The notes beneath the pieces are model-generated. The model saw only the letters and a program-made list of their open reading frames with translations. It was not told where the DNA came from and did not search any database. From Thermococcus peptonophilus (lineage in GTDB: Archaea; Methanobacteriota_B; Thermococci; Thermococcales; Thermococcaceae): DNA of 64,000 bases. The DNA lies in the NCBI RefSeq assembly GCF_001592435.1, contig NZ_CP014750.1:1550001-1614000 (forward strand), in the 5' to 3' direction. Position 1 is the stretch's first letter. Every line of letters starts with the position of its first letter. A program made the position numbers and the translations under genes. Positions 20,345 through 57,425 of this stretch are shown here, in pieces.

Positions 20345-20716
20345 TCACTTCATGAGCTCCTTGACCTTCATAGCGATGTCCTCAACGAGCTCGCGGGCCT
20401 TACCCGGCTCAATGATGGCAACGCTTGCAGCGGCGACCTCAAGGCCAGCGGCCGCTCCAAGCTCCTTCTTGCTCGGGACGTAAACGTACGGGATCTCCTT
20501 CTCCTCGCAGAGCGGCGGGAGGTGGGCAACGATCTCCTCAGGGTCAACGTCCTCGGCTATGACAACGAGCTTGGCCTGGCCCCTCTCAACGGCCTTGGTG
20601 GTCTCGTTGGTGCCTTTCCTTATCCTTCCGGTGTCCCTTGCAATCTCAACGGCCTCAAGGGCCTTCTCAGCAAGCTCCTGTGGAACCTCAAACTTCACGT
20701 AGCTCGGCTTCGCCAT
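20345..20716 (-). CDS. rpl7ae: Ribosomal protein L7Ae (eL8), kink-turn binder
   Basis: The 123-residue protein has the kink-turn RNA-binding segment [14 protein letters not shown] near residues 32-45. Besides the ribosome and RNase P, it is the core protein of archaeal C/D and H/ACA guide RNPs, which is relevant to the five guide RNAs proposed here. The start follows GGAGGG at 6 bases. A minus-strand TATA-like box (acccttttaagcgg) is at about 20770-20783. Confidence 0.96.
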
Positions 20717-20790
20717 CCTCATCCCTCCGAAACCTCATCGTTCATCTGGTTTGCACCACCGAGTCTGGCTGACCGCTTAAAAGGGTTTCG

Positions 20791-21975: not shown

Positions 21976-22085
21976 TTTTCTCACCCTTGGGGAGTTTATT
22001 TGTGAAGTTTATAATCTTTTGGTTAACGTCTGGGAAGATCTTGAGCAAGATAGGATTTGGTAAAAAAATTCCCAAAATGCCGCGC

Positions 22086-22134
22086 TCAGGAGCGGCCAAG
22101 CTCATCATCCACTCAGCTCAGGACTCCTCATCAT
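22086..22134 (-). ncRNA. C/D box guide sRNA (overlaps the 3' end of the zinc-finger gene)
   Basis: Read on the minus strand: box C ATGATGA (22134-22128), 11-nt guide ggagtcctgag, box D' CTGA (22116-22113), 4-nt spacer, box C' ATGATGA (22108-22102), 12-nt guide gcttggccgctc, box D CTGA (22089-22086). This is the canonical archaeal layout. Predicted targets are CUCAGGACUCC and GAGCGGCCAAGC, 2'-O-methylated at the fifth base of each by the D+5 rule. Box C and the first guide lie inside the last codons of the gene ending at 22118. A terminal stem is weak. Confidence 0.85.
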
Positions 22135-22729
22135 AGCCCCGATATATTTCGAGGCTTCTTCTGGCTCTCGCTTTTGGAATCTGGTGTCCCATTATGGCCA
22201 CAATCTCATCGGCTTTTGCCTTTCCGTGGTGGAGCATCTTCCTCTCGGTCTTTATCTTCTCCACCCTGAAAGTGTAGCCTCCAACTTCGATGACTTCTCC
22301 AACAACGAACTCCTCGCTCCTCGGCACCTTCACCTTAAAGGCCTGGGTGATGCCCTTTGGAAGATAGATGGAGACCTTTATGACCTTTGGGTAAGTTAAG
22401 CTCTCGCCCCAGAGGGTCTTGATTTCTTCCACCTTAGCCTTATTGACTCTTTTATCCCCGTCTAATTCTATCCCGGTTATCCTGACTTCATCGTTCTCCG
22501 TCTCTACGATGTCGCCGACCTTTATTTCTTCTCCCTCTGGAAGCTCGGCCTCGCTCTTGAAGCTCCTCTCGTGCTTGCTGACGATGAGTGGAACCTTCCT
22601 GAACTTCGGAAGAGTAACGTGCCAGACGTTGCCGCAGTCGTTACAGCGAAGGGTAAGATCTCTCCCCCTCTCCTTGATAACCTCAACGTTCTCGCTACCG
22701 CATTCGGGACATACAAACAGCTCTTCCAT
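22118..22729 (-). CDS. HVO_0476-family zinc-finger protein
   Basis: The 203-residue protein starts with a zinc ribbon (CPECGS ... CNDCGNVWHV) followed by two small beta-rich modules (VGDIVETENDEVRITGIE and VGEVIEVGGYTFRVEKI). It matches the archaeal HVO_0476 family of unknown function, probably nucleic-acid binding. ATG 22729 follows GGTGAG. A C/D box sRNA overlaps its 3' end. Confidence 0.82.
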   Translation of the reverse strand: MEELFVCPECGSENVEVIKERGRDLTLRCNDCGNVWHVTLPKFRKVPLIVSKHERSFKSEAELPEGEEIKVGDIVETENDEVRITGIELDGDKRVNKAKVEEIKTLWGESLTYPKVIKVSIYLPKGITQAFKVKVPRSEEFVVGEVIEVGGYTFRVEKIKTERKMLHHGKAKADEIVAIMGHQIPKARARRSLEIYRGYDEES

Positions 22730-49856: not shown

Positions 49857-49909
49857 TCAGCACTCAAGATCCTCATCATCCGGTAGTCAGTTTTTGCCTG
49901 GTTCATCAT
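49857..49909 (-). ncRNA. C/D box guide sRNA
   Basis: On the minus strand: box C ATGATGA (49909-49903), 12-nt guide accaggcaaaaa, box D' CTGA (49890-49887), 7-nt spacer, box C' ATGATGA (49879-49873), 12-nt guide ggatcttgagtg, box D CTGA (49860-49857). Both guide lengths and all four boxes are canonical. Predicted targets are UUUUUGCCUGGU and CACUCAAGAUCC, methylated at the fifth base. It lies between two + strand genes; flanks tttg/caaa can form a short terminal stem. Confidence 0.88.
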
Positions 49910-50880: not shown

Positions 50881-50916
50881 GCTATGTTTTTAAACTTCTC
50901 CGGATACTTTAACATG

Positions 50917-51078
50917 CCGACAGCGAGGGGACAGTCAGTCTCCTCGCAGGGCTCGGTACAACCGCCTCCGCAAGGCATCGGGTTCCGTGAGCGGAGCGTG
51001 CTCACGCCGAGCCCACAGGGCCGGGAGCATCCACCCGCGGGAGCAGTGACCGCGGGCCTCTGTACCCGGCCCACACTT
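50917..51078 (+). ncRNA. Double H/ACA guide sRNA
   Basis: This GC-rich stretch folds into two consecutive H/ACA units. Unit 1: lower stem GGGCTCGG (50949-50956)/CCGAGCCC (51007-51014), upper stem 50963-50971/50991-50998, then ACA at 51015. Unit 2: lower stem GGGCCGGG (51018-51025)/CCCGGCCC (51065-51072), upper stem CCCGCGG/CCGCGGG (51034-51040/51050-51056) capped by a K-loop-like GAGCAGTGA, then ACA at 51073. In both, the 3' pocket strand begins 16 nt before ACA, as in known guides. A hairpin at 50923-50947 precedes them. The TATA-like tgtttttaaac (50885-50895) sets the 5' end estimate. Confidence 0.85.
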
Positions 51079-51098
51079 CGATGCACTTCTCAAGAAAG

Positions 51099-53969: not shown

Positions 53970-54758
53970 ATGAGGATAGAGGAGCACGTTGCATTCACAG
54001 CAAAACATAATGACTGGCAGGTTGCCAAGAAGCTCACGGAGCTTGAGGACGAGGCCGTTGCCCACTTCCTAGCAGGGATAGCGAACTCCGTTAACACTAG
54101 GATACCTCATTACATGTCAGAGAACATTGACCTTGAGGGAATAAGACGACTGGCAGAAGAAGTCAGAAAAGACACTCTCAGCGACACGATAGTTGCTCTA
54201 AAATCTCCTGGAACATCAAGGAAGCTGGGTGCACTGGTCAAGGAAGGAGACAAAAAGCTCAAGAAGTTGCTCGTAGATGCAGCAAAGGCTGTCCTCGTCA
54301 GGATAACACTAGAGGAAATAGTCCCCGTTAATTACCCCGAAGGTGAGCTTACTGGGGTTGACGTTGAGTTTCCGTACGAGGAAGATCACGTGAACTTCAC
54401 TGCCAAGCATGGAAAGTGGATAGTTGTCAAGAGGCTCATCATAGACGAGAAAACGCCCCTACTTGACGTTGCCAGACTTCTGGCGAGCATCAACGAGACG
54501 GTCACTCTGAAGCTTCCCGCGTATGCGCACATAGACCTTGAGGGTATAGAAGGCGAGTTCTCGGCGTTCAAAAAGGTTAAAAAGTCCGACATCCCGAAGG
54601 TTGTGGAGGCCTACGAGGCGTTCGAGCCTTCAGCCTACGCCGATGAACCGTTCCTTGAGCACGCTAGGGTCTACGCTCTCCGCGTGGCTCTTGAGAAGAT
54701 AGGGCTTCCTCTAGATGTCCCGTCCAAGAGCCTCGAAAAGTACCTTGAGAAGGCGTGA
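53970..54758 (+). CDS. Internally duplicated protein, probably DUF2666
   Basis: The 262-residue protein contains two copies of a ~120-residue unit: EEHVAFTAKHNDWQVAKKL ... ENIDLEGIRR and EDHVNFTAKHGKWIVVKRL ... AHIDLEGIEG. I believe this matches the archaeal DUF2666 family of unknown function. GGTGAG precedes ATG 53970. Its stop codon overlaps box C of a C/D sRNA. Confidence 0.8.
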   Translation: MRIEEHVAFTAKHNDWQVAKKLTELEDEAVAHFLAGIANSVNTRIPHYMSENIDLEGIRRLAEEVRKDTLSDTIVALKSPGTSRKLGALVKEGDKKLKKLLVDAAKAVLVRITLEEIVPVNYPEGELTGVDVEFPYEEDHVNFTAKHGKWIVVKRLIIDEKTPLLDVARLLASINETVTLKLPAYAHIDLEGIEGEFSAFKKVKKSDIPKVVEAYEAFEPSAYADEPFLEHARVYALRVALEKIGLPLDVPSKSLEKYLEKA

Positions 54759-54803
54759 TGATGCCGAGGACACCTGAGCGGTGATGACTCTTCGCTTCGC
54801 TGA
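54755..54803 (+). ncRNA. C/D box guide sRNA overlapping the DUF2666 gene stop
   Basis: Box C GTGATGA (54755-54761), 12-nt guide TGCCGAGGACAC, box D' CTGA (54774-54777), 3-nt spacer, box C' GTGATGA (54781-54787), 12-nt guide CTCTTCGCTTCG, box D CTGA (54800-54803). All boxes are perfect. Flanks agaagg and cctttct can form a terminal stem. Predicted targets are GUGUCCUCGGCA and CGAAGCGAAGAG with methylation at the fifth base. The TGA of the upstream gene lies within box C. Confidence 0.92.
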
Positions 54804-54831
54804 CCTTTCTTCCCATTTTGAGGTGCCGCCC

Positions 54832-57366: not shown

Positions 57367-57425
57367 GGCGGATGATGACTACGGCGGATTCCCGAGCGGT
57401 GAGGACGACCTTAGGGTCTGACGCC
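57367..57425 (+). ncRNA. C/D box guide sRNA
   Basis: Box C ATGATGA (57372-57378), guide ctacggcggattc, degenerate box D' CCGA (57392-57395), 3-nt spacer, box C' GTGAGGA (57399-57405, one mismatch), 12-nt guide cgaccttagggt, box D CTGA (57418-57421). Flanks ggcg (57367-57370) and cgcc (57422-57425) form a clear terminal stem. The D-guide target is ACCCUAAGGUCG. It fills the gap between two convergent genes. Confidence 0.85.

Follow-up and report, generated by a model that had tools for sequence, protein, structure and literature searches.

Can the final codons of a protein gene also form part of a guide RNA and, if so, which of those bases would the RNA hold in place? This question is raised by a locus in Thermococcus peptonophilus, within a 64,000-nucleotide (nt) stretch of contig NZ_CP014750.1 (positions 1,550,001 to 1,614,000 of the forward strand; hereafter the window), where a candidate C/D box small RNA (sRNA) runs on the minus strand from box C to box D at 22086..22134, at the 3' end of a zinc-finger gene. 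Its box architecture, its overlap with the open reading frame (ORF), its conservation, its complementarity to tRNA-Gln and the register of its guide can be seen directly in the DNA. We hold with considerable confidence that it belongs to the archaeal C/D box sRNAs, has a single target and arises from the 3' end of the zinc-finger mRNA, and that it would guide 2'-O-methylation of G18 in tRNA-Gln.

Box architecture at the end of the zinc-finger gene

The host gene (22738-22118, minus strand; PF19769 CPxCG_zf, 5.4e-46) encodes a CPxCG-related zinc finger of 206 amino acids (aa) with the C-terminus YRGYDEES. The initial annotation had placed a C/D box sRNA with arms of 11 and 12 nt at 22086-22134 on the minus strand, at the 3' end of this gene, and its coordinates and arm lengths proved right, with the PF19769 ORF ending at 22118. 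Read along the minus strand, box C (ATGATGA, 22134-22128) lies within the ORF in the Tyr-Asp-Glu codons and is followed by arm 1, GGAGTCCTGAG, which is 11 nt long (22127-22117), 10 nt of it coding, including the stop codon. The last codons, GGC TAT GAT GAG GAG TCC TGA, do hold box C and nearly all of the first arm (10 of its 11 bases), as the annotation had read them. Box D' (CTGA, 22116-22113) is separated by a 4-nt spacer, GTGG, from box C' (ATGATGA, 22108-22102), which is followed by guide 2, GCTTGGCCGCTC (also given as GCUUGGCCGCUC; 12 nt, 22101-22090), and by box D (CTGA, 22089-22086). An extra CTGA lies within arm 1 at 22121-22118 and, if used as box D', would leave an arm of only 6 nt. 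The mature RNA likely has its ends at about 22084-22138.

The C, D', C', D order is canonical, and the lengths of both arms and of the spacer are those of an archaeal C/D box sRNA. Such an RNA should also have a complement in a stable RNA, with the target opposite the fifth guide position before the box (N+5), for which one guide is enough; guide 2 has such a complement, and arm 1 has none in 16S, 23S or 44 tRNAs. Boxes and guide are likewise kept in relatives. A strict double C/D pattern matched three places in the window, namely 22134-22086, the sR45 RNA listed by Rfam and 49857-49909 on the minus strand, and it matched nothing in 200 dinucleotide shuffles of the window. TGA stop codons and GAT or GAG codons readily yield box-like words, from which an ORF tail and its 3' untranslated region (UTR) might by chance come to resemble a C/D sRNA, but the empty shuffles and the conservation across the family searches leave such an accident next to no probability.

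In the Rfam model search no family reached its gathering score over the locus, while many C/D families scored below threshold over 22084-22138 (best snoPyro_CD, 29.0 bits against a cut-off of 45), and these matches stand beside the box pattern in support of the assignment. The folding stability of the whole RNA is ordinary (z -0.55), which we attribute to the need of a C/D RNA for its proteins.

Complementarity of guide 2 to tRNA-Gln

The initial annotation suggested a search for targets of both arms in rRNA and tRNA, and for the second, searched as GAGCGGCCAAGC, this succeeded: 11 of its 12 bases match the D-loop of both tRNA-Gln, forming a Watson-Crick run of 11, where the runner-up among 16S, 23S and 44 tRNAs was a run of 7. 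The guide is G+C-rich, and 9 of 1000 shuffled guides attained a run of 11 in the run-length test, which superseded a preliminary scan whose score-based null was weak (31 of 200 shuffles attained the score). The complement, AGCGGCCAAGC, occurs at four sites in the genome, these being the two tRNA-Gln genes (UUG and CUG anticodons), the complement of the sRNA itself and one other. Counting to N+5 brings the guide opposite linear residue 17 of the tRNA, the first G of the invariant D-loop GG, so that the predicted target is canonical G18 (the numbering is our own reading).

Conservation was followed across the genus (61 genomes) and the family (94 genomes). A protein search found the zinc-finger gene at 89 places in 88 of the 94 genomes, with 83 loci classified by the gene end and downstream DNA (the unclassified places are in G040, G063, G078, G079, G082 and G088, and G054 has two copies on different contigs, both counted as loci). 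The 11-nt core of the guide, AGCTTGGCCGC, lies exact at the 3' end of the gene in 39 of the 83 and with at most two mismatches in 48, and judging from these loci box C', guide 2 and box D are the conserved unit. Across the family, 66 of the 94 genomes contain the core together with box D, compared with 20 of the 94 for a reversed control pattern. The guide block is absent from 35 loci, 26 of them in other genera and 9 in genomes of the same genus. Lack of box conservation in close relatives was one half of the refutation test that the initial annotation had proposed, and on that half the prediction held, with the boxes and guide 2 both conserved.

Guide and target were also compared across genomes, using a hand-assembled table of G000-G083, minus G038 and G070, which had no tRNA match, and with G029, G046 and G047, where the guide is inexact, counted as lacking it. 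Where the exact guide is missing, tRNA-Gln deviates from AGCGGCCAAGC in 6 of 24 genomes; where it is present, in 2 of 58 (Fisher p 0.007, treating related genomes as independent and uncorrected for kinship).

Several findings weigh against a G18 guide at this locus. Position 1 of guide 2 is unpaired with U13 of the tRNA, and G021 and G032 have the guide, yet their tRNA-Gln(UUG) carries AGCGGACAATC, which breaks two pairs and counts against a strict dependence. In 9 of the 61 genus genomes (G003, G022, G033, G034, G036, G042, G043, G051 and G052, four of the nine less than 90% complete) the gene end has no adjoining guide block. The locus also scores only 19.5-20.4 bits with the Rfam model RF01119, whose gathering score is 40 bits; this is sR32, a Thermococcales C/D box sRNA that shares an identical box and guide block, ATGATGAGCTTGGCCGCT, complementary to the tRNA-Gln D-loop. 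Finally, as given in the part of PMC7668247 drawn on here, C16 of tRNA-Gln is a predicted C/D target in Pyrococcus furiosus that mass spectrometry did not detect.

The C16 prediction also belongs to an alternative in which the sRNA methylates another D-loop base, or mainly chaperones tRNA-Gln. Most g3 genomes place box D' one base further along (GCTAC|CCGA), so that N+5 falls on C16, in keeping with that prediction. In T. peptonophilus itself, as in those loci of g4 and g5 that were inspected, the box directly follows GCTN and gives G18, and the same portion of PMC7668247 lists G18 of Sulfolobus acidocaldarius tRNA-Gln(UUG) as a C/D target both predicted and observed. We consider this alternative unlikely, though deserving of some weight. 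Gm18 itself, the 2'-O-methylated form of G18, is present in archaeal thermophiles according to the section of PMC7912444 that treats it; by that account a C/D guide has been suggested, and no TrmH homologue is known from Archaea.

For G18 methylation by a single-target sRNA, we infer a course of transcription, processing, protein binding and methylation in which the zinc-finger mRNA would be the precursor. Its 3' end would fold into two kink-turn type motifs, C/D and C'/D', to which L7Ae, Nop5 and fibrillarin would bind, protecting the folded RNA while the flanking mRNA is trimmed off. Guide 2, adjoining box D, would then pair with the D-loop of tRNA-Gln (UUG and CUG) and direct 2'-O-methylation of G18, with arm 1 acting as a spacer of the required length and having no target of its own.

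The partner half: box C and arm 1

The half of the RNA that faces the conserved unit is built in two ways. Among 48 guide-bearing loci, 29 place box C (TGATGA) in the 3' UTR (UTR type), 11 carry TATGANGA in the ORF tail (ORF type, as in T. peptonophilus) and none has both, as expected if exactly one is needed. Of the remaining eight, G017, G029 and G055 have the guide at D' by our own reading, G048 has box C across the stop codon, G016 and G028 lack a clear C/D' half, and in G046 and G054b the guide block is decayed. Two residues after Gly-Tyr, the protein has Lys or Arg in all 29 UTR-type loci and Asp or Glu in all 11 ORF-type loci; because the ORF type is defined by TATGANGA, its acidic residues are partly definitional, which does not apply to the Lys or Arg of the UTR type nor to the empty class with both boxes. 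A CC..GG stem stands between D' and C' in 28 of the 29 UTR-type loci; in most ORF-type loci its place is taken by a 3-5 nt spacer.

Arm 1 also differs between the two layouts. In ORF-type loci its length is exactly 11 nt in 9 cases out of 11, with eight different sequences, whereas the arms of UTR-type loci are mostly pyrimidine-rich and 13-32 nt long (28 of 29 readable). An inserted hairpin-like stretch is present in arm 1 of L105 (G006), L124 (G039) and L106 (G014), and its stem differs between G006 and G039 (AACCGGGG..CCCCCGTT and AATTGGGG..CCCCAATT, respectively), as if kept by paired changes.

The target search for arm 1, as CUCAGGACUCC, gave a longest Watson-Crick run of only 6 in 16S, 23S and 44 tRNAs (gapped and imperfect pairings being scored less than exhaustively), a length that 994 of 1000 shuffles reached or exceeded. 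Neither this arm nor those of G012 and G057 found a target in these RNAs, and we rejected arm 1 as a functional guide. A double-guide sRNA, whose first arm also directs rRNA or tRNA methylation in T. peptonophilus, would draw on the limit of that scoring and on the 11 nt seen in most ORF-type loci, which is a normal guide length. Against this stand the run no better than shuffles, the variation of the arm among relatives and the long, pyrimidine-rich and sometimes hairpin-bearing arms of the UTR type, and we regard a second guide as distinctly improbable. Arm 1 looks like spacing, with no target of its own, and it appears to be its length and not its sequence that is maintained, solely within the ORF-type layout. 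The initial annotation held that the same bases are constrained both as protein and as guide; this stands for box C and fails for the first arm, which varies and lacks a target. On the evidence of these loci it is box C and the spacing, not guide 1, that carry the dual constraint of protein and RNA.

We also considered whether box C entered the ORF tail in a single event. On a gene tree (48 rows, 594 columns) no fewer than eight changes between ORF type and UTR type are needed (G048 being counted as ORF-type in one tree count and omitted from the other), and a single event was set aside on this ground, but no more than three independent pairs have well-supported branches behind them (sign test p 0.25), and recombination, whether inside the zinc-finger gene or next to it, is likely. 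In the opposite-type sister pairs G050/G007 and G012/G056 the gene shares 92-99% identity and the DNA downstream is unrelated, which makes it as likely that the tail of the gene was exchanged together with the DNA behind it as that new recruitment occurred repeatedly.

Around the gene the flanking DNA is swapped and the guide block persists, which might suggest a DNA element that is conserved, for instance as a site of recombination or integration, and merely resembles an sRNA. An attachment (att) site would not account for the spacing of the boxes, for the N+5 register or for a guide identical to that of sR32, and we assign this reading very little probability. For a genuine sRNA we propose, tentatively and a little more doubtful than persuaded, that its half-modules turn over separately. 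The box, the tRNA-Gln guide and the second box would be kept while the partner half is rebuilt from adjacent DNA on one side or the other. For several lineages of Thermococcus that half would consist of the zinc-finger reading frame, with box C dictating the C-terminus (TAT for Tyr, then two acidic residues, where relatives have Lys or Arg at the second). A one-base change in the distance from guide to box would likewise have shifted the methylation site by one base, between C16 and G18, from genus to genus.

Gene order around the zinc-finger gene is strongly shuffled. In the close relatives L006/L016 and L003/L028 the gene is 92-99% identical while the downstream DNA is unrelated, and in one pair the upstream DNA too. 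Two genes downstream of the sRNA in T. peptonophilus lies a gene of the ribosomal protein L7Ae family (20345..20722, minus strand; PF01248), the family of a core protein of the C/D small ribonucleoprotein; in several UTR-type relatives (for example L022 and L023) the L7Ae gene is apparently next after the sRNA, and its leader has a k-turn-like GATGAACGATGAGG.

Elsewhere in the window, the strict architecture at 49857-49909 on the minus strand is intergenic (no covering ORF of at least 80 aa), scores 39.6 bits with snoPyro_CD against the cut-off of 45 and is probably an unlisted C/D sRNA. A looser-box architecture (D' CCGA, C' TGAGGA) lies between two ORFs at 57372-57421 on the plus strand and has weak matches to several sR families. 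Rfam places the RNAs HgcF (H/ACA) at 50916-51086 and sR45 (C/D) at 54751-54805, both on the plus strand.

Comparison with known systems

Among the closest known RNAs is sR32. As in that family, the guide GCTTGGCCGCT directly follows an ATGATGA box, but sR32 has its guide at D', followed by a second arm, AAACUCCGGUG, and box D, and it lies at other loci; here the guide is at D, accompanied by an unrelated arm, and an ORF contains the 5' half. Even where we read the guide at D' (G017, G029 and G055), the second arms differ from that of sR32. A further difference is that the box stands one base further on in most g3 copies, with C16 as the predicted site. Other genera carry the same guide at a different locus, there above the Rfam sR32 threshold, and 19 of the 94 genomes are over the cut-off in the stricter search. 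By its boxes and guide, the RNA at 22086-22134 is a real C/D box sRNA, guide-related to sR32, that falls outside the sR32 model. Our search of the open-licence literature, with supplements outside its scope, found no description of this RNA; the portion of PMC4247193 concerned with Thermococcus kodakarensis refers to a list of 54 C/D RNAs.

Both overlap with ORFs and single guides that target tRNA are already known for archaeal C/D sRNAs. The part of PMC7994747 that reports Tripp et al. 2017 states that 25% of C/D genes overlap the 3' end of an ORF and that the flanks are dispensable for maturation. Our locus has the same overlap, but in that account almost half of the cases have the stop codon in box C, whereas here the stop lies in arm 1 and box C consists of sense codons. 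The same source, in its account of Lui et al. 2018, describes C/D sRNAs with one guide directed at a tRNA and the other without target, as proposed here; those are from Pyrobaculum and ours from Thermococcales.

The sRNA is a concrete guide candidate for Gm18 formation in the tRNA-Gln of Thermococcales; for Archaea, according to the text cited from PMC7912444, no stand-alone Gm18 enzyme was known. It also offers a compact case, seen across many sequenced relatives, of an RNA motif that apparently dictates the final residues of a protein. Both points could be tested in T. kodakarensis, in which gene deletion is established, as stated in the relevant part of PMC9014305. The methyltransferases TrmH and TRM3 yield the same product, but as stand-alone enzymes. 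A further counterpart is the C/D sRNA for tRNA-Gln(UUG) G18 in S. acidocaldarius (snoRNAdb, as given in the cited part of PMC7668247), which is predicted to act on the same nucleotide of that tRNA in another phylum, a likeness that we draw by target and not by guide sequence.
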